A DNA stretch of 7,569 bases, taken from Chromatiales bacterium. Its GTDB lineage: Bacteria; Pseudomonadota; Gammaproteobacteria; Thiohalospirales; Thiohalospiraceae. This document shows positions 1 to 7,367 of the stretch, piece after piece. Within the stretch, counting starts at the first letter, position 1; each line of letters starts with the position of its first letter. The position numbers and the translations under genes are program-made. Under the pieces are notes generated by a model. It ran no database searches, was not told where the DNA came from, and saw nothing but the letters and a program-made list of their open reading frames with translations. The stretch covers positions 1-7,569 of the forward strand of contig JALSRO010000428.1 in the NCBI GenBank assembly GCA_026984715.1, in the 5' to 3' direction.

Positions 1-1
1 G

Positions 2-739
2 AAGATAGCCAAGGGGTTGGACAACGACAAGCCCTACTGCATCACCTGCCATACCAATCCGTTATACAACGAGGCGGAGAAGGAACCTCCCAAGGAGATC
101 GTGGAGCGTTGTGTCGTCTGTCATGAGGACAAGGCGTTCGCCACCAAATGGTACAACCATACCAGCCGCCGCATCCGTGAAGTGAAACGCTCTTCAGAAC
201 AGATTGTAACGCTCTGCTCCTCCTGCCACGCCGATCCGGAGTTCATAAAACGGCACGAGGCGGCTGCCGCCAGGGAGGGGCGCAAACTGGGCCGCAAGTT
301 CCCCTATGCCGCTGTGGCCTATCAGGAGAGTTTCCATGGCAAGGTTACCAAATACGGTTATACCAAAGCGGCAAATTGTCTGAACTGCCACGCCTCGCCA
401 GACAACTACTACCTCAGTGTACACGAGCTGCGCCCCTCCCGTGACCCGAAATCGCCTATCAACAAGGCCAACCGAGTCAACACCTGCCGCCAGTGCCACA
501 AGACTGCAGACGAAAACTACGCTTCCATCGATCCGCATCCGACCCATCACAAAGAGGACAATCCGTTCAACTACTATGCCGAAATCATCTATGGCATCGT
601 GGGTGATATCGCACTGTTCGGGCTGGTCGGCATGGCCATGTTCGAGACCTTTGGACGCAAGCGGGATGGCGTGAACTGGGTACTCCGCCAGGGAACCAGC
701 TGGCGCCGCAAGCGCAGAACACGTCGCTCGAGGAAGTAG
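2..739 (+). CDS. Membrane-anchored multihaem cytochrome c, 5' truncated
   Basis: The frame is open to the left edge, so the start lies outside the window and the TTG at 17 is not convincing as a start. Numbering residues from base 17, there are five CXXCH covalent haem c sites at about 8, 32, 67, 121 and 157 (CITCH, CVVCH, CSSCH, CLNCH, CRQCH). Further His residues (H107, H136, H174, H177, H178) could serve as distal ligands. A hydrophobic helix at about 187-209 is followed by a very basic tail ending in KRRTRRSRK. By the positive-inside rule the haem domain is periplasmic and the tail cytoplasmic. The next gene, 46 bases on, is a cytochrome b. A bc-type pairing, with this protein taking electrons from the b haems or giving them to it, is the likely role. 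The total haem number is unknown because the N-terminus, including any signal peptide, is missing. The exact family was not recognised beyond multihaem cytochrome c. Confidence 0.9.
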   Translation, partial: KIAKGLDNDKPYCITCHTNPLYNEAEKEPPKEIVERCVVCHEDKAFATKWYNHTSRRIREVKRSSEQIVTLCSSCHADPEFIKRHEAAAAREGRKLGRKFPYAAVAYQESFHGKVTKYGYTKAANCLNCHASPDNYYLSVHELRPSRDPKSPINKANRVNTCRQCHKTADENYASIDPHPTHHKEDNPFNYYAEIIYGIVGDIALFGLVGMAMFETFGRKRDGVNWVLRQGTSWRRKRRTRRSRK

Positions 740-785
740 AAACGGGTACGGATCCATCATCTGAATAAACGAGGGCAATAGCAGA

Positions 786-1787
786 ATGAAGCTGTCCAGA
801 GATGCAAGCGCGGTGCTCGAAACGAGCATGCGCCAGAACAAGATATCAATTGAAGAGTCCCGTGAGCTCGAAGAGCTGATAGGGATGATGCCAGATGACA
901 AGAAGGTCATCTATCAGAATGTCGACTCCAATCCGGTCGGGGATCTGCACCGCTACTCGGTTCATATCCGCATCCAGCATCTGCTCACCTTCACCACCTT
1001 TCTGTTGCTGGCGTTCACCGGGCTGCCGATCCACTACAACGAAGCCTTCTGGGCCGAACCGTTCAACAGCCTGCTGGGAGGGCTCGAGGTGACGCGGGTC
1101 ATTCACCGGACCTTGGCCATGACCTTCGTGGTCGCCATGATCTATCACGGCCTCACCCTTCTGCTGGGCACCATGCGCAGAATCTCTGCGGGAAAATTCG
1201 ACATTCGACAGACCATCATTCCGCTATGGAAGGACGCCCGCGACTTCTCTGCCGATATGGCCTATTTTGCCGGCAAGCGCAGCAATCGTCCCGACATGGA
1301 CAAATTCATGTACAAGCAGAAGATCCACTATTTTGCCGCTGCCTTCGGCAACACGGTGATGGTGGTATCGGGTTCCAGTTTCCTGTTCCCGGAGTTCTGG
1401 AACAGCATCCTGCCCGCCCAGTATGCCGCCAACTGGCAGGAGATGATGCGCCTCTCCCACCCTCATGAGGCCCTGCTGGCCCTGCTGGTGATCGCCTTCT
1501 GGCACTGGTACAACGTGCATTTGGCACCGGGGCGCTTCCCGATGCAGTGGACCTATCTCACCGGAAAGCTTACTCGTGAGCATCAAATCGAAGAGCATTT
1601 TCTGGAGTATCTGCGCAATCTGGTGGAACTGCCCGAAGAACGCCGCTACATGCAGGACAACCTCATCGATCGGGATCTGGCCGTCACCCCTCCCTCGCAA
1701 AACAGCGTATTCGAGGAGTATCGAAAAAGCGTCGCCAGCAGCCCGGGGGACTCCCCCTCTTCCGAAGTAGTGGAAGAGCTGCAGTAG
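786..1787 (+). CDS. Cytochrome b, four-helix b561 / formate dehydrogenase gamma-like quinone-linked subunit
   Basis: This 333-residue integral membrane protein probably exchanges electrons between the quinone pool and periplasmic haems. A hydrophilic N-terminus (about 1-55) precedes four predicted helices at about 63-83, 107-128, 182-201 and 228-246, and a polar tail of about 85 residues follows. Histidines cluster at helix ends: H55, H60 and H65 before helix 1, H83 at its end, H107 and H121 in helix 2, H181 at helix 3, H225 and H227 before helix 4, H240 and H245 within or after it. This pattern is typical of di-haem b cytochromes of the b561/FdnI/PhsC type, so two b haems are likely. The ATG at 786 has GAGG at 771-774 upstream, somewhat far. 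It lies between two anchored multihaem cytochromes, so it is probably the membrane core of the complex. No catalytic molybdoenzyme or hydrogenase subunit is visible nearby, which argues for a quinol-cytochrome c role. The assignment is by pattern, not by database match. Confidence 0.85.
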   Translation: MKLSRDASAVLETSMRQNKISIEESRELEELIGMMPDDKKVIYQNVDSNPVGDLHRYSVHIRIQHLLTFTTFLLLAFTGLPIHYNEAFWAEPFNSLLGGLEVTRVIHRTLAMTFVVAMIYHGLTLLLGTMRRISAGKFDIRQTIIPLWKDARDFSADMAYFAGKRSNRPDMDKFMYKQKIHYFAAAFGNTVMVVSGSSFLFPEFWNSILPAQYAANWQEMMRLSHPHEALLALLVIAFWHWYNVHLAPGRFPMQWTYLTGKLTREHQIEEHFLEYLRNLVELPEERRYMQDNLIDRDLAVTPPSQNSVFEEYRKSVASSPGDSPSSEVVEELQ

Positions 1788-1788
1788 G

Positions 1789-1905
1789 ATGATGCGGCCG
1801 CTGACGCGAGGACAGAAGATTGTCGCCTATGGGTCTCTGCTGTTTATCTTTTTCTGGATTGTTTTTGGTGTATTTGCTATCGGACTGATGCTGGTCGAGG
1901 GATGA
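1789..1905 (+). CDS. Small single-helix membrane protein (38 aa)
   Basis: An ATG one base after the cytochrome b stop opens a 38-codon frame ending in TGA at 1903-1905. The product has a short basic N-terminus (MMRPLTRGQK) and one strongly hydrophobic segment at about residues 14-36, rich in F, I, L, V, W and G, then ends VEG. It has no Cys and no CXXCH. The tight spacing implies translation coupled to the cytochrome b gene; a weak purine stretch ending in AGG overlaps the upstream stop. Small one-helix subunits are common in respiratory complexes, where they stabilise the membrane core, and that is the proposed role here. The inference rests on position, an ideal membrane-helix composition and operon packing. 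No named family was recognised. It could be a chance frame, but the hydrophobicity and exact abutment make a real gene more likely. Confidence 0.7.
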   Translation: MMRPLTRGQKIVAYGSLLFIFFWIVFGVFAIGLMLVEG

Positions 1906-1940
1906 TTCCCGCAGACCGAATCAAACAATAAAGGCTTGTT

Positions 1941-3008
1941 ATGAATCAGACACTACAACTCGATGCGGTGTTCATAGCACTTGCTGTGGTATTGTTCGTT
2001 TTTTTCGCCATTGCCGTGCTCATCATTATCGACCACAAGGCGAAGATACCAGGCCCCGAAACCCATGATCTGTTCTCCGTTTCCGGAATACGCCAGGACC
2101 ACCCGATCTGGGCATGGATGGTATCGCTGTTCCTCTGGTTCATCATCGGCAGCCTGCTGCTCATCATCACCTATAATCTGACCAGGCACCTGTTTGTTCA
2201 CGAGGAGGTCAAGGAGCAGACCTTCCTGGGCAAGGTGGACGCCGAGGCGCAGGCGGAGCGGATACGCCATTTCCACAACTCTCCCAAAGAGGCCCCCTAC
2301 TCCAAGGGAAAGCAGCCGGTCTGCTACTACTGCCATGGAGAGTTTCCGCACGCACAGAAGCCGATGGTACGCACCCTGCTGAACATGCACACCCAATTCA
2401 TCGGCTGCATGACCTGTCACACCAACAGCAAGAAGATCCCCGAGGACCAGCTGGAGCTCCGATGGCTCAACTACTCGGGGATCCCCACCAAGGGAAAACC
2501 CTTTGGTACCGATACCGATCCGGTCACGGGTGGATTGATCGAGACCGATGACTTCTTCTCCAAGATCGTCCCATACCGCAAGGGGCCGGATGGCAAGGAG
2601 ACACTCATCGAGATCACCGAGAACAACGACGAGGCCCGCGAGTTCATCACGGTTCGCGGCGACCTGACCACCCAGCAGCAGGGCGCCATCAAGAAGATGT
2701 TCCACACACTGGTCAACCCCATCGGGCGTTTCTGTACCCGCTGCCACGCTTCCGAGGATGAGAGCTATATCCCGTTTCGCAAGCTGGGCTTCTCCGAGAA
2801 GCGCATCACTGCACTCACCAATCTGAATATCGTTGGCATCGTTCAGAAATACAAAAAGTTCTATATCCCGACCATCTTCCGCGGCAACATGACCAAGGAT
2901 GAACAGGAGATTCTGCTGGGCAAGGACAAACCTGCTCCCGAGGTAGACCCGGAGATGCTGGAGGATCCCCGTGCCTGGTGGCGCAAGATGTATGACCAGA
3001 AGCAATAG
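1941..3008 (+). CDS. Membrane-anchored three-haem cytochrome c with two N-terminal helices
   Basis: A 355-residue protein with two predicted transmembrane helices at about 8-30 and 57-80, joined by a loop of about 26 residues containing IPGPETHDLFSVSG. A large hydrophilic domain follows. With both helices crossing, the N-terminus and the large domain lie on the periplasmic side, as haem c attachment requires. CXXCH motifs are at 128-132 (CYYCH), 156-160 (CMTCH) and 265-269 (CTRCH). The gap of about 105 residues between the second and third sites is unusually long for a small multihaem protein. It contains a haem-free stretch (about 180-255) that may be an independent folded insertion. The ATG at 1941 is preceded by AAGG at 1931-1934. 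The gene sits 35 bases after the small membrane ORF and belongs to the same operon. Likely role: an anchored relay between the cytochrome b core and the downstream soluble cytochrome. The family beyond cytochrome c was not recognised. Confidence 0.88.
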   Translation: MNQTLQLDAVFIALAVVLFVFFAIAVLIIIDHKAKIPGPETHDLFSVSGIRQDHPIWAWMVSLFLWFIIGSLLLIITYNLTRHLFVHEEVKEQTFLGKVDAEAQAERIRHFHNSPKEAPYSKGKQPVCYYCHGEFPHAQKPMVRTLLNMHTQFIGCMTCHTNSKKIPEDQLELRWLNYSGIPTKGKPFGTDTDPVTGGLIETDDFFSKIVPYRKGPDGKETLIEITENNDEAREFITVRGDLTTQQQGAIKKMFHTLVNPIGRFCTRCHASEDESYIPFRKLGFSEKRITALTNLNIVGIVQKYKKFYIPTIFRGNMTKDEQEILLGKDKPAPEVDPEMLEDPRAWWRKMYDQKQ

Positions 3009-3015
3009 TCGCTCT

Positions 3016-3021
3016 GGAGGG
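3016..3021 (+). promoter_or_regulatory. Strong ribosome binding site of the NHL gene
   Basis: GGAGGG lies 5 bases before the ATG at 3027 and is the best Shine-Dalgarno sequence in the operon. It favours 3027 as the start of the NHL protein over the in-frame ATG at 3093, which has no purine-rich stretch at a suitable distance. Confidence 0.6.
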
Positions 3022-3026
3022 ATACA

Positions 3027-4016
3027 ATGTCCGGGTACCGGAGCCTATCCATCCGGTACCCGAATCGATATGAACACTCGACCGTAGCCACAATGCGTCC
3101 ATCGCCTGCAAGGAATCTTCTGCTACTGGCGGCACTTCTGCTGCCGTGTGGATCGAGTCACGCAACAACCATCCCCACCAAACCAGCCAGACACCTGTTC
3201 GACATAACCGAAGCCGGTAGTGGAGCTCTTCTGCTCCCCACAGACGTCGCCGTCGGCACCAATGGCCAAGTATATATCGTCGACAGCGGCCACAGCCGGA
3301 TTGCGGTGTTCAACCCGGCCGGACACCCCGTCTCCACCTTCGGAACCCCGGGAAGCAGTGCGGGGGAACTGCAGAAACCCATCGGGATCGGCATCGACTC
3401 CAGGGGAATGGTCTATGTAGCCGACTCCGGAAACAACCGGATACAGGTGTTCACCCCGGACGGTCACTACCGCTCCGGCTTTCCGGTGAAAGGAAGATCC
3501 GGCCCGGTGAAACCCATCGATGTTGCGGTGGCAGACAACGGCACCATCTACGTTACCGGCAACACCAATCACATGGTGATGGTTTACGACCAGTCGGGAA
3601 AACTTGTCGACCAGTGGGGTGGCGAAGGCACCAGCGAGGGGCAGTTCCGTTATCCTGGGACCCTGGTGGTACGTGGCGGTCTCATCTACGTGGTGGATGT
3701 GCTGAATACCAGGGTCCAGGTGTTTGAACCCTCGGGGCAGTTCCGCTTCCACATCGGTGAGTGGGGAGTCGCGCCTGGGCAGATGTTCCGTCCCAAAGGC
3801 GTGGCCATCGACCGGCGCGGCCGCACCTACGTAACCGACAGCTATATGGATCTGGTGCAGGTGTTCAACCGTTCGTACAAATTCATGTATGTGCTCGGAA
3901 GAGGCGGCAAGCCGCAGAAATTTACCGCACCGGCAGGGTTGGCTATCGACTCTTCCAATCGGATGTACATTACCGAAATGCTCGAGCACAAGGTGTCGGT
4001 ATATCAGCTACCATGA
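3027..4016 (+). CDS. Exported NHL-repeat six-bladed beta-propeller protein
   Basis: From residue 70 to the C-terminus the protein is a series of about six NHL blades, starting near 70, 117, 162, 208, 255 and 302. Each has the pattern P-x-(G/D)-(V/I)-A-(V/I)-D, G-x-(I/V)-Y-V-(A/V/T)-D-S, and a hydrophobic strand such as RIQVF or RVQVF. Such propellers are protein or ligand binding platforms, not known enzymes. A signal peptide is clear: basic MRPSPARN, a leucine-rich core, and a probable signal peptidase I site after SSHA. It starts either at residue 1 with a long n-region or at the internal Met23 (base 3093). The start at 3027 is chosen for its GGAGGG ribosome binding site; the 3093 start gives a more typical signal peptide and would leave the hairpin at 3032-3062 non-coding. 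The gene ends in an ATGA overlap with the 18-haem cytochrome gene, so the two products probably work together in the periplasm or outside the cell. Confidence 0.88.
   Translation: MSGYRSLSIRYPNRYEHSTVATMRPSPARNLLLLAALLLPCGSSHATTIPTKPARHLFDITEAGSGALLLPTDVAVGTNGQVYIVDSGHSRIAVFNPAGHPVSTFGTPGSSAGELQKPIGIGIDSRGMVYVADSGNNRIQVFTPDGHYRSGFPVKGRSGPVKPIDVAVADNGTIYVTGNTNHMVMVYDQSGKLVDQWGGEGTSEGQFRYPGTLVVRGGLIYVVDVLNTRVQVFEPSGQFRFHIGEWGVAPGQMFRPKGVAIDRRGRTYVTDSYMDLVQVFNRSYKFMYVLGRGGKPQKFTAPAGLAIDSSNRMYITEMLEHKVSVYQLP
3032..3062 (+). promoter_or_regulatory. Perfect 11-bp hairpin near the start of the NHL gene
   Basis: CGGGTACCGGA at 3032-3042 is the exact reverse complement of TCCGGTACCCG at 3052-3062, with a 9-base loop (GCCTATCCA). 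No T-run follows, so it is not a standard intrinsic terminator. It begins 5 bases after the ATG at 3027. In the mRNA it would sit at the ribosome entry zone of the NHL gene, or form a processing or stability element between the cytochrome genes if the real start is 3093. The structure is seen directly; the function is inferred. Confidence 0.6.
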
Positions 4017-6340
4017 CTCTTTCCGGTCCTCTCAAAACCGTAACCGCCTCGATGGTGATGCTATTCGGGGTTTTACTGCTTGTGCAGCCAAACAGTGCAC
4101 ACGCAGCGCGCAACATCTCGCCCAAGAGGGAGTGTTCCATCTGTCATGTAATGTGGCTGACCACTTTCACTCGCAAGGACACGGCCACACTGATTCCGTA
4201 CGACCCGAAACCGGTAGTGAAAACCGGTAAGCAGGATGTGGTGAGCACCGAACGGATGTGCTTCTCCTGTCATGACGGCTTCGTACGGGACTCACGCTTT
4301 GCGTGGGAGAACAGGCAGCATTTTCACCCTGTGGGAGTAAAGCCGTCCAAGCGAATAAAGATCCCCACCATGGATGGAAAGATCGTCTTTCCCCTCAATG
4401 AAGAGGGTAAGCTCTACTGCGGCACCTGCCACAGCGCGCACGGTGTCGACTGGAAAGAGAAATACTCTCCGGTTTTCCTCCGCGTCAAGAACATAAATTC
4501 GAGCCTCTGCCTGGCCTGTCACGTGGATCGCGCCACTGGCATCCGCGAGGGTAATCACCCGATGTTCAAGAATATCGAGCGCATCGGGAAAGTACCCGCC
4601 GAGCTACGCAGGGCGGGCTCCAAATTTGGAGGAAAACGGAACAACAAGGTGATCTGCCAGTCCTGCCACCGCGTCCATGGCGCTGCAGACAAGAAGCTGC
4701 TGGCGGTCGACAAGCATGACTTGTGCACTACCTGCCACGCCAACAAGAGAGGAGTGAACGGCACCAAGCACGACGCCGCCATCATGAGCAAAAAGGGGTT
4801 GATCGAGCCGGACACCGGTCTCTGTACCGCCTGCCACAAACCCCATTTCGGCAACGGGCCGCGGATGTGGGCCTTCAAACTGAAAAAGGGTGAAAACCGC
4901 ATCACCGCAATGTGCTTGAGCTGCCACAACCCGAACGGTCCAGCAAAGAAAAAGGTTATCGACAAGAAGCACACCCACCCCATCGGGGTATCCATTGAAA
5001 ATGTTGGAATCTCTGCTACCCGCAAGCAATGGAAAGCGGTGGGAGACAACGTCTATGTCAAAGGTTCGCTCACCCCTCTGCCTCTCTATGACCGGCGCGG
5101 AAACCGGGTATCCAAGGGGGGGCAGGTCGCCTGCACCACCTGCCACGATCCCCACAACTGGTCCACCCTGCCCGCAAAGCAGCGCCCCGACCCGCTGGCT
5201 GAAGGGGATGGGCGGGGGAGCTTCCTCCGTATCCCTTTCGACCGCAAGGGTTCGATATGCACCAACTGCCATGTTGACAAGGCGATGGTAGCGCTCTCCA
5301 AGCACAACCTGCAGATCTCGTCACCGAAGAATGCCGGGAAGACCACCGGTGGCGGATTGTGCGGTGACTGCCACAAGCCCCATGCAGGGAAAGGCCCAAA
5401 TCTCTGGGCCAGAGACTACGGTCCGGGCAACGATACCATCGAGAAGATGTGCCGCGACTGCCATCAGAAGGGAGGTATCGCAGGCAACAAACTCACCGGC
5501 AAAAATTTCCATCCGGTAGGAGTCAACATCGACAAACTGGTATTCAAGCCCAAACCGCACCTCCCACTGTTCAGCAAGAGCGGAAAGCTGGGCTACGGCG
5601 AGGGCAGGGTCAGCTGCGGCACCTGCCACAACCCACATCAATGGGATCCCAAAGCTCCGGACAGCATCGAAGGGGCCTTTCCCGACGTAGAAGGCAATGG
5701 TCAGAACAGCTTCCTGCGCATCCCCGCCGCTCCGGGAGAGAAGCTCTGCGTCGAGTGCCACACCGATAAGCGTTTCATCCGCGGAACCGATCACGACCTG
5801 CATGTCACCGGCCCAGACCAGCCCAATGCACTGGGACAGACGGTGAACGAGACCGGAATCTGCGGCCAGTGTCACATGGTACATAACGCCCCCAATCGAT
5901 TGCGCCTCTGGGCGCGCAAGCTTGGCCCCGGCAAGAACCCGATGGAGAAACTCTGCCGCAGTTGTCACAGCAAGGGGCGTTTTGCCAGCAATAAGCTACC
6001 CAAGAGGCTCACCCACCCCATCGAGGTACGGGGAATCAGCATGCGCGGTGGCCAACCAACCAAGGGCAAGAAGGGGCACCGGCCGGTATTCGATGACCAG
6101 GGGCACGAATCCCGCTCCGGCGTAATCACCTGCCCCACATGTCACAACCCGCACAAGTGGTCAGACATCAGGCAACGCCCTGGGCCAGGAAAGAACGTGG
6201 AGGGTGACGTAAGAAACAGCTTCCTGCGCGATGCCCGCAACGTGGACCTGTGCGCCAACTGCCACGGCATGGACGCCATCTTCCGCTTCAAATACTTCCA
6301 TGCAGACGCATCGCGGCGGAAACATCGCCTCTACGAATAA
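4013..6340 (+). CDS. Exported 18-haem cytochrome c with tandem four-haem repeats (doubled-CXXCH type)
   Basis: A 775-residue protein with a signal peptide: a hydrophobic core at about 12-25 and likely cleavage after NSAHA at about 31. It has 18 CXXCH motifs, the first Cys of each at 41, 83, 136, 166, 215, 238, 271, 301, 374, 416, 450, 480, 535, 579, 617, 648, 707 and 747. Pairs such as CGTCHNPH...NSFLRIP...LCVECHTDK match the doubled-CXXCH (Paired_CXXCH) style. Homologous sites recur every 161-179 residues, so the protein is a repeat of a four-haem unit. Typical signatures are CHKPH-GP-LWA, MCRxCH-HPxGV and CHNPHxW. No membrane helix follows the signal peptide, so it is periplasmic or exported. 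ATG 4013 overlaps the NHL stop (ATGA). The frame stays open upstream to 3761, but that part lies inside the NHL gene and lacks haem motifs, so the start at the signal peptide was chosen. Likely role: a long multi-centre electron conduit. The partner at the cell surface is unknown. Confidence 0.93.
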   Translation: MTLSGPLKTVTASMVMLFGVLLLVQPNSAHAARNISPKRECSICHVMWLTTFTRKDTATLIPYDPKPVVKTGKQDVVSTERMCFSCHDGFVRDSRFAWENRQHFHPVGVKPSKRIKIPTMDGKIVFPLNEEGKLYCGTCHSAHGVDWKEKYSPVFLRVKNINSSLCLACHVDRATGIREGNHPMFKNIERIGKVPAELRRAGSKFGGKRNNKVICQSCHRVHGAADKKLLAVDKHDLCTTCHANKRGVNGTKHDAAIMSKKGLIEPDTGLCTACHKPHFGNGPRMWAFKLKKGENRITAMCLSCHNPNGPAKKKVIDKKHTHPIGVSIENVGISATRKQWKAVGDNVYVKGSLTPLPLYDRRGNRVSKGGQVACTTCHDPHNWSTLPAKQRPDPLAEGDGRGSFLRIPFDRKGSICTNCHVDKAMVALSKHNLQISSPKNAGKTTGGGLCGDCHKPHAGKGPNLWARDYGPGNDTIEKMCRDCHQKGGIAGNKLTGKNFHPVGVNIDKLVFKPKPHLPLFSKSGKLGYGEGRVSCGTCHNPHQWDPKAPDSIEGAFPDVEGNGQNSFLRIPAAPGEKLCVECHTDKRFIRGTDHDLHVTGPDQPNALGQTVNETGICGQCHMVHNAPNRLRLWARKLGPGKNPMEKLCRSCHSKGRFASNKLPKRLTHPIEVRGISMRGGQPTKGKKGHRPVFDDQGHESRSGVITCPTCHNPHKWSDIRQRPGPGKNVEGDVRNSFLRDARNVDLCANCHGMDAIFRFKYFHADASRRKHRLYE
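4143..6270 (+). repeat. Tandem four-haem protein repeat within the 18-haem cytochrome
   Basis: Sorting the 18 sites by context gives four classes. Class c is CxxCHxPH or similar followed by LWA. Class d is MC/LCxxCH followed by HPxGV and PL. Class a is CxTCHxPHxW followed by NSFLR. Class b is LCxxCHxDK followed by HD. The order is c d a b (sites 1-4, divergent), a b (5-6), then c d a b (7-10), c d a b (11-14) and c d a b (15-18). The sites per class are 161-179 residues apart in the last three units. This looks like internal duplication of a four-haem module, with one half-unit (sites 5-6) inserted or left after a deletion. The pattern is seen by eye; alignment scores were not computed. Confidence 0.75.
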
Positions 6341-6569: not shown

Positions 6570-7367
6570 CTATCCCACCGACTCCAGATAGGCAAGCTCC
6601 GCTTCACTGAAACCACCTTTGAGGCGCGCCTCTCTGTAGAACGGACCCTTCAGACGCCCGGTCATGTAGCGCGAAACCAGATCACGGAAGGTACTCTCCG
6701 GCTCCATACCCCGCTCCCGACATAGATGGTTGAACCAGCGCGAGCCGATGGCCACATGGCCAATCTCATCGTGCAAAATGATCTCCAGCGCCGCTACAGC
6801 GCACCGATCACCGCGGGCACTCAGCTTCTCCATGATACCGGGGGTGACATCCAGCCCGCGTGCCTCCAATACCCGTGGTACCAGCGCCATACGCACCAAC
6901 GGATCGAAGGCGGTCTTCTGCGCCATCTCCCACAGGCCATCATGCGCATCGAAATCCCCATATCTATGGCCCTTTGTCTCCAGGCAGCGGTGCAGAAGTC
7001 CGAAATGAACCGCCTCCTCTTCTGCCACCCGGATCCAGTCGTCGTAGAACTCTCGCGGCATCTCACGGAAACGATACACCGCATCCCACGCCAGATTGAT
7101 GGCATTGAACTCGATATGGCAGATCGCGTGCAACAGTGCCGCATGGCCTTGCGGGGTGTTCATACTGCGCCGTGGCAGCTCCCGTGGCGCTACCAGCCGG
7201 GGACGGCGCGGCCGGCCCGGTTCACCTATCGGCTCCGGCGGGGCCGCCGGCTCGGGCCGCAGCCACCCTTCCCTCCACGCATTCGCAGTGGTGCGCGTCA
7301 GCGCTGCCTTCTCGTCCGGTTCGGTCGAATAGAGACAGGCCCGCGCTGCTTCGAAGAGATTACTCAT
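6570..7367 (-). CDS. DUF455 family ferritin-like protein
   Basis: A 265-residue soluble protein recognised as a DUF455 (PF04305) ferritin-like, putative di-metal four-helix protein of unknown substrate. A proline- and arginine-rich linker at about 38-67 separates a short N-terminal helical part from the ferritin-like core. Candidate metal ligands are E86 (in HIEFNAINLAWD), E118 with H121 (EEEAVH), E169 (VLEARGLD) and E201 with H204 (HDEIGH), which is the expected E, ExxH, E, ExxH arrangement. No signal peptide or membrane helix is present. Distant relatives include tRNA hydroxylase MiaE-like proteins, but no substrate should be assumed. It lies 25 bases downstream of a glycerate kinase gene on the same strand, so the two are probably co-transcribed; the association is not obviously functional. 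The start codon lies inside the second copy of an 11-bp tandem repeat, and the Shine-Dalgarno sequence is weak. Confidence 0.88.
   Translation of the reverse strand: MSNLFEAARACLYSTEPDEKAALTRTTANAWREGWLRPEPAAPPEPIGEPGRPRRPRLVAPRELPRRSMNTPQGHAALLHAICHIEFNAINLAWDAVYRFREMPREFYDDWIRVAEEEAVHFGLLHRCLETKGHRYGDFDAHDGLWEMAQKTAFDPLVRMALVPRVLEARGLDVTPGIMEKLSARGDRCAVAALEIILHDEIGHVAIGSRWFNHLCRERGMEPESTFRDLVSRYMTGRLKGPFYREARLKGGFSEAELAYLESVG

Follow-up and report, generated by a model that had tools for sequence, protein, structure and literature searches.

How might electrons pass between the quinone pool of a bacterium and the outside of its cell, and which proteins would carry them? The question is raised by a run of six genes, three of them for multihaem cytochromes c, on one contig (G000:C428) in a draft metagenome-assembled genome (MAG) of a Chromatiales bacterium. 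The window, by which we mean the whole of this contig at its full length of 7,569 bases, comes from an assembly of 490 contigs that is 86.5 percent complete. We consider it likely that the six genes encode an inner-membrane, quinone-linked cytochrome bc complex together with a periplasmic wire, and that this unit joins the quinone pool to an outer-membrane porin–cytochrome conduit of the Uet type (undecahaem electron transfer), a system of Tenderiales and some Gallionella.

Gene content and conservation of gene order

The six genes follow one another on the + strand with intergenic gaps of 46, 1, 35, 84 and −4 nucleotides. The first (2..739) encodes the C-terminal part of an anchored 7-haem cytochrome c, with five haem motifs (CXXCH) and one C-terminal helix; as the window is the entire contig, this gene lacks its 5′ end, which is missing at the contig edge. 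Next come a cytochrome b of the Ni_hydr_CYTB / formate dehydrogenase gamma type (786..1787; PF01292, E 1.5e-9), a conserved hydrophobic open reading frame (ORF) for a one-helix membrane protein of 38 amino acids, the predicted small subunit (1789..1905), a 3-haem cytochrome c with three CXXCH and two N-terminal transmembrane helices (1941..3008), an exported NHL-repeat β-propeller with a hydrophobic N-terminal segment (3093..4016; PF01436, E 6.7e-33) and an exported 18-haem cytochrome c (4013..6340; PF09699, E 3.4e-45) whose doubled-CXXCH repeats, 18 motifs in all, make it the predicted periplasmic wire. An 859-amino-acid ORF for this last gene was set aside as an upstream extension: the gene starts at 4013, overlapping the NHL stop by 4 nucleotides. 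The NHL gene itself most plausibly starts at 3093, directly before a hydrophobic, signal-like stretch.

By a Kyte–Doolittle scan the b protein has four helices, the 3-haem protein two and the 38-residue protein one; with the Pfam assignments, this agrees with the layout proposed in a first-pass annotation of the sequence: anchored multihaem cytochromes around a four-helix cytochrome b and a one-helix protein, followed by an exported propeller and an exported 18-haem cytochrome. Its count of 26 visible haem c sites is exact (5 + 3 + 18) and far above chance expectation, shuffled amino acids of the three cytochromes giving means of 0.02, 0.004 and 0.09 motifs and a maximum of two. Since homologues of the first gene have seven motifs, not five, the full operon probably encodes 28. 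The same annotation saw here a complete route from the quinone pool across the periplasm, which went too far: the set is incomplete, with no porin in the window and the first gene cut.

Are these six genes a unit or a chance assembly of neighbours? A scan with the b gene of a collection holding one genome per species yielded 69 loci, whose neighbouring genes we counted by tblastn over the evaluable loci, meaning those with enough sequence. A 7-haem match lies directly upstream of the b gene in 68/68 loci and a 3-haem gene downstream in 68/68; the NHL gene is present in 52/59 and a homologue of the large cytochrome in 55/57, leaving the whole string intact in 49/56. The counts for the NHL gene and the whole string rise to 53/59 and 50/56 once L070 is included, where the NHL match begins 14 nucleotides before the search range and was hence missed. 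Four loci (L014, L015, L017 and L025) have the large cytochrome directly after the 3-haem gene, and in two (L058 and L065) the string is interrupted by an inserted paralogous module. Homologues scattered in the genomes would have spoken against the system first imagined; the order is instead conserved across loci and, as judged from these comparisons, the six genes are a conserved unit. By record title its carriers are Gammaproteobacteria, Thiobacillus, Sulfurimicrobium, Sulfuritalea, Noviherbaspirillum, Nitrospiria/Nitrospirae, Deltaproteobacteria and Desulfobacteraceae, which we take to represent three phyla, and the titles speak of vents, groundwater and lineages in which sulfur or iron oxidation is known.

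Proteins of the unit

Haem motifs in the two membrane-anchored cytochromes were counted in ORFs of at least 90 percent coverage, leaving out split or cut ORFs (for example the 3-haem ORFs of L010 and L021). Seven motifs occur in 62/64 homologous ORFs of the first gene, the exceptions being the window copy (five) and L038 (six), both open at a contig start; a complete homologue (L004:4186-5286) has seven CXXCH and two hydrophobic segments. All 54 filtered ORFs of the 3-haem protein, the window's included, have three CXXCH.

For the b protein we aligned ORFs that reached 55 percent identity and 85 percent coverage, which came from 61/70 loci including the window's own (L001) and, with the query, made 62 rows and 61 distinct sequences. 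Eleven histidines are invariant among these 61; positions 107 and 121 (helix two) and 227, 240 and 245 (around helix four) are among them. The protein matches TIGR01583 below the cut-off, and Pfam and NCBIfam place it near the b subunits of hydrogenases and formate dehydrogenases.

Between the b and 3-haem genes, 64/68 loci have a hydrophobic ORF of 25–70 residues, as against 0/68 in a reverse-strand control of the spacers; the ORF was not found in L033, L063, L064 and L070. These ORFs have one strong hydrophobic stretch, and a pattern around QK..AY.SL is common to the listed sequences. The window's 38-residue copy has no match among Pfam or NCBIfam models, and from its place and conservation we infer that it is a subunit of the complex.

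The 3-haem protein has 507 homologues at E 0.001, and its AlphaFold2 model (predicted local distance difference test score, pLDDT, 76.9) contains helices at 2–34 and 55–85. The window's protein (window:1941-3008) and another 3-haem protein (L092:1687-2634) weakly resemble the octahaem tetrathionate reductase family (TIGR04315, 1sp3), with which their haem core perhaps shares a common origin. The window's 3-haem protein is also listed at 100 percent (P0001); the longest contig given there, at 40,851 bases, exceeds that of the window and could reveal where the operon starts.

Among 55 homologues of the large cytochrome, 30 have 24 motifs and 18 have 18 (48/55 with one or the other); of the remaining seven, two have 23 and one has 14, while four run off a contig edge with 19 motifs (three) or 12 (one). 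Downstream of the unit, L047 (L047:15862-19254) and L069 encode proteins of 1130 and 1234 residues with 11–12 haem motifs.

Porin and cytochrome genes in relatives

What might stand at the far end of such a wire? Among the 43 loci with at least 9 kilobases (kb) upstream, a porin homologue was found in 28 (the six seed loci of the porin search counted among them), an 11-haem homologue in 25 and both in 22; the porin homologue lies upstream of the b gene in 27 of the 28. Two common arrangements were seen. In one (for example L013 and L047), genes for a 4-haem cytochrome, an NHL protein, a protein of 660–720 residues, a second NHL protein, an 11-haem and an 8-haem cytochrome precede the unit; in the other (for example L043), an NHL protein, a 4-haem cytochrome, a protein of 585–611 residues, a propeller-like protein (of PQQ type in L007) and an 8-haem cytochrome stand upstream, with an NHL protein and the 11-haem cytochrome downstream. 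On the complete chromosome G122 the genes run consecutively on one strand: 4-haem, NHL, porin, NHL, 11-haem, 8-haem, 7-haem, cytochrome b, a 39-residue counterpart of the small ORF, 3-haem, NHL and 24-haem. A peptidyl-prolyl isomerase gene adjoins the porin gene in L066, and small 3-haem ORFs of up to 240 residues occur in 15/70 loci, one to three in each (G122 has one; L118 and L119 have none).

The long proteins of these sets, the porins, end in F in 17/27 cases and in L in 8/27, residues frequent at the end of barrel proteins. The L043 porin is modelled as a 28-strand barrel (pLDDT 85.4) whose top match in a Foldseek search of the PDB is 6r2q_B, MtrB of the Mtr complex (E 9.4e-11; TM score, for template modelling, 0.54); the porin members tested had no Pfam or NCBIfam match above cut-off. 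The two porin types (L007 and L043; L013 and L047) show no mutual BLAST match at E 1e-5 and cross-match weakly by profile (E 9e-5 to 8e-8); they may well be one fast-evolving barrel family.

Across 369 genomes of the class, screened at E 1e-70 for the b gene and E 0.001 for the porin, nine carry the b gene, and a porin match was found in 8/9 of these as against 7/360 of the others, three of those seven being weak (E 5e-5 to 4e-4). The association (Fisher p 7e-12) is not corrected for kinship; the nine carriers span seven genera. The single carrier with no porin match is the window's draft genome.

Some porin clusters stand apart from the b gene. G350 (L122, G350:C7) has a short cluster of NHL, 4-haem, two small 3-haem genes, porin, NHL and 11-haem; the stretch in G250 (L123, G250:C9) begins at the 4-haem gene and then keeps the same order. 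The window's b gene was not found in either genome, and the short clusters have no inner-membrane b module. G301 (L121, G301:C2:171000-190999) has the long gene order, but a 6-haem/b/3-haem paralogue stands where the window's module would be, and the terminal cytochrome has 12 motifs; the window-type b gene was not found there. Such a replacement makes the inner-membrane module look exchangeable. In L120 (G285:C1) a porin homologue stands beside an 807-residue protein that is NHL-like in part and has several hydrophobic stretches; the region read there holds no cytochrome genes.

Noviherbaspirillum denitrificans TSA40 (L033), the sole cultured strain named in the list, has the b string; porin, 11-haem and 38-residue-protein genes were not found in its 18-kb locus. 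Two MAGs filed as Thiohalomonas denitrificans (L023 and L043), a species with cultured strains, both have the porin and 11-haem genes.

The window's own genome and genus

Where, then, is the outer half in the window's own lineage? In two genus-mates, G212 and G313, genes for NHL, 4-haem, porin and NHL proteins lie on a contig separate from the b unit (L118 and L119). After the second NHL gene, G212 has a homologue of the 11-haem protein with 12 CXXCH (L118), and the contig of G313 ends within the second NHL gene; the porins of the two match the profile of the other porin type at E 1e-106 and 1e-107. In the window's genome, the end of contig C216 holds a matching NHL gene (81 and 79 percent identity) and the first part of a matching 4-haem gene (77 and 83 percent). 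Because the porin set of G212 and G313 and the genes of C216 sit on other contigs, the inner and outer halves appear to occupy separate loci in this genus.

The window's genome also encodes, at L095:3-1925 (G000:C168), one polypeptide in which nine CXXCH are joined to a cytochrome b domain, a layout like that of CbcL, the nonahaem quinone oxidoreductase of Geobacter. The complete 7-haem homologue of L004 aligns with this fusion at 28 percent identity over 336 residues, the window's own cut 7-haem protein at 31 percent over 157, and the window's b protein, along the other half, at 27 percent over 255. The Cbc analogy drawn in the first-pass annotation was thus right in kind.

Elsewhere in the same genome, a 6-haem/b/3-haem paralogue lies on C467. 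C137 has genes for cytochrome c assembly and for a 4-haem protein, together with the beginning of a 6-haem gene. C41 and C56 (L094 and L091) encode propellers of PQQ type, an NHL protein, 8-haem cytochromes and a 24-haem cytochrome that is related to the window's 18-haem protein. RuBisCO is encoded on C319. Within the window, the six genes are followed by a convergent neighbour that lies outside the system, a gene for a DUF455 protein (6570..7367, − strand; PF04305, E 6.2e-99), which is likewise downstream in L004.

Discussion

Taken together, the genes, their haem motifs and order, the linked porin set of relatives, the fusion alignment and the class-level co-occurrence suggest a path in which haem attachment, assembly of the complex, electron flow with its direction, and substrate are all presumptive. 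Cytochrome b, held by the 38-residue helix and with the anchored 7-haem and 3-haem proteins on either side, would exchange electrons with quinone; the 7-haem domain would exchange them with the soluble 18-haem protein, whose counterparts in many relatives have 24 haem motifs and which would span the periplasm; and at the outer membrane an 11-haem cytochrome inside a large porin and a 4-haem cytochrome outside it would move them to or from the exterior. The NHL propeller would serve as a docking or scaffold part: as NHL proteins pair with large cytochromes, they are likely, at a guess, to be docking platforms. Extracellular electron transfer, one of the roles first suggested for the window, is the best reading given the neighbours in relatives (porin 28/43, 11-haem 25/43). 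As for direction, uptake from outside into quinone stands about even with export; we lean to uptake because the organism has RuBisCO.

Several observations weigh against a quinone-to-Uet link. Neither porin alignment found a porin in the window's draft genome, and in its genus the halves are unlinked as far as the contigs reach. No porin homologue was found in 15/43 of the long-upstream loci, and neither a porin nor an 11-haem homologue in 12/43; a divergent or more distant porin could have been missed in such loci, that of G045, for one, lying about 12 kb from its b gene. The co-occurrence across the class was scored with porin queries and profiles built from b-carrying loci, which biases it upward. 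By a second aligner many large barrels are similarly close to the porin, 6r2q_B being ninth and 2.1 Z units under the top, so the MtrB likeness does not prove that a cytochrome sits inside the porin. Structure comparison of the 3-haem protein gave no confident match, and the parallel with Uet is drawn from its inventory of parts, not from Uet sequences; among the hits listed, none was a named Tenderia sequence.

The strongest competitor, a serious possibility that we rate somewhat short of even, is a Cbc-like quinol oxidase working outwards, in which quinol would be oxidized and electrons exported to metal oxides, humics or partner cells, as CbcL reportedly does in Geobacter. Alignment with the CbcL-like fusion fits it, and so do extracts of the literature, to which our use of the papers cited here and below is confined: CbcL hands electrons to PpcA (PMC9129911), deletion of cbcBA reduces Fe(III) reduction (PMC11434368) and an ‘occ’ cluster with novel multihaem cytochromes is tied to Mn(III) reduction (PMC8258643). 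Against this, Uet parts are described in cathode-oxidizing Tenderiales (PMC10734462) and the window's genome encodes RuBisCO, while outward and uptake versions would have identical anatomy.

Two further alternatives would change the destination of the electrons rather than their direction. The bc complex could feed or drain a soluble multihaem enzyme of nitrite, tetrathionate or sulfur chemistry, as a purely periplasmic respiratory module with no surface link; we think this improbable, given the porin match in 8/9 genomes with the b gene versus 7/360 without it, the porin within the locus in 28/43, and TIGR04315 scores of 21.7 and 32.5 bits against a cut-off of 375. It is a little more improbable still that the 18/24-haem cytochrome is an extracellular protein, an OmcS-like filament or surface cytochrome, and not a periplasmic bridge: the protein is exported and rich in haem motifs and has homologues with 12, 18 and 24, but its gene lies with those for the inner-membrane subunits, and none was seen next to the porin in either genus-mate with split halves (L118, 20 of 29 kb read; L119). 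We therefore keep the inner-membrane complex with its periplasmic wire, leading to a Uet-type conduit, as the preferred reading.

How much of this is new? The first-pass annotation could name no matching system, a claim that finds no support in the outer half, where the porin, 11-haem, 4-haem and NHL neighbours of relatives fit the Uet inventory: UetJ (11-haem), UetA (4-haem), UetHI (NHL), UetC (porin), UetB (isomerase) and UetDEG (3-haem) (PMC10734462). Uet and the linked set of relatives share the 11-haem and 4-haem cytochromes, NHL proteins and porin, and the isomerase has a counterpart beside the porin of L066. A UetJ-like protein is found in relatives (25/43) and not within the window, its genus copy being on another contig; counterparts of UetA, UetHI and UetC are consecutive in G122, L118 and L119 and likewise outside the window. 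The available Uet summary has three 3-haem cytochromes but names no b module of the inner membrane, whereas relatives have small 3-haem genes in some loci only and add the bc module, the 18/24-haem cytochrome, an 8-haem cytochrome and one more NHL protein; the short G350 and G250 clusters, with two small 3-haem proteins each, come closer to the published list.

On the inner-membrane side, CbcL of Geobacter, with six helices, two b haems and nine c haems, is a quinone oxidoreductase passing electrons to PpcA (PMC9129911). The window shares its combination of a multihaem c domain and an FdnI-type cytochrome b, as does the C168 fusion by layout. It differs in having separate c and b genes (as separate ORFs in relatives too) where CbcL is a single fused polypeptide, in having seven motifs and not nine, and in adding the 38-residue helix and the membrane 3-haem subunit; the likeness is judged through the C168 fusion. 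Cbc5 (CbcEDCBA, Geobacter) also combines a 7-haem c subunit, a b subunit, further c subunits and a membrane protein (PMC7894505, PMC11434368); compared by description, neither its 12-haem CbcC nor its HAMP-type 2-haem CbcD finds a counterpart by haem count, and no NHL protein is named in the extracts. PCC3 of iron oxidizers (He et al. 2017) shares long multihaem cytochromes, a porin and an inner-membrane protein of about 300 residues, in its case with five helices and two WX3HX13H motifs (PMC5566968). That motif occurs in 0 of our 61 distinct b proteins; a very large cytochrome near a porin is common to both (18 or 24 motifs in 48/55, porin in 28/43), a likeness in haem count and gene setting.

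MtrCAB of Shewanella shares the porin–cytochrome logic, MtrB being the top Foldseek match in the PDB to the modelled porin; relatives differ from it in a porin of 28 modelled strands and an 11-haem partner in place of decahaem MtrA. The Occ cluster is reportedly rich in NHL proteins and multihaem cytochromes, and it may already contain part of the module. It belongs to Ca. Dechloromonas occultata (Szeinbaum et al. 2020) and is cited as one undecahaem example from a manganese reducer (PMC13264449).

No published description of the 7-haem/b/38-residue/3-haem/NHL/18–24-haem string was found in a search that did not extend to the original Uet (2022) and Occ (2020) papers. With its gene order conserved the unit stands, but the novelty first claimed for the window is reduced, with an outer half of a kind already named, to that of a variant: on the extracts consulted, what is new would be the inner four-gene module with its 38-residue protein, conserved and matching neither Pfam nor NCBIfam, and the 18/24-haem wire. 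A bolder proposal, to which we give a little less than an even chance, is that this undescribed four-subunit, quinone-linked bc complex with its own 18/24-haem wire is the missing inner half of Uet/Occ-type conduits in three phyla; the slot it fills may also take a 6-haem paralogue (G301) or stand empty (G350, G250), so that conduits and modules would swap as cassettes. Cytochromes of 12, 18 and 24 haems, for their part, would offer a natural series for relating cytochrome length to the width of the periplasm. In the extracts of the Uet-related literature the route from the conduit to the quinone pool is not spelled out, and the unit described here would give that route a concrete set of subunits.

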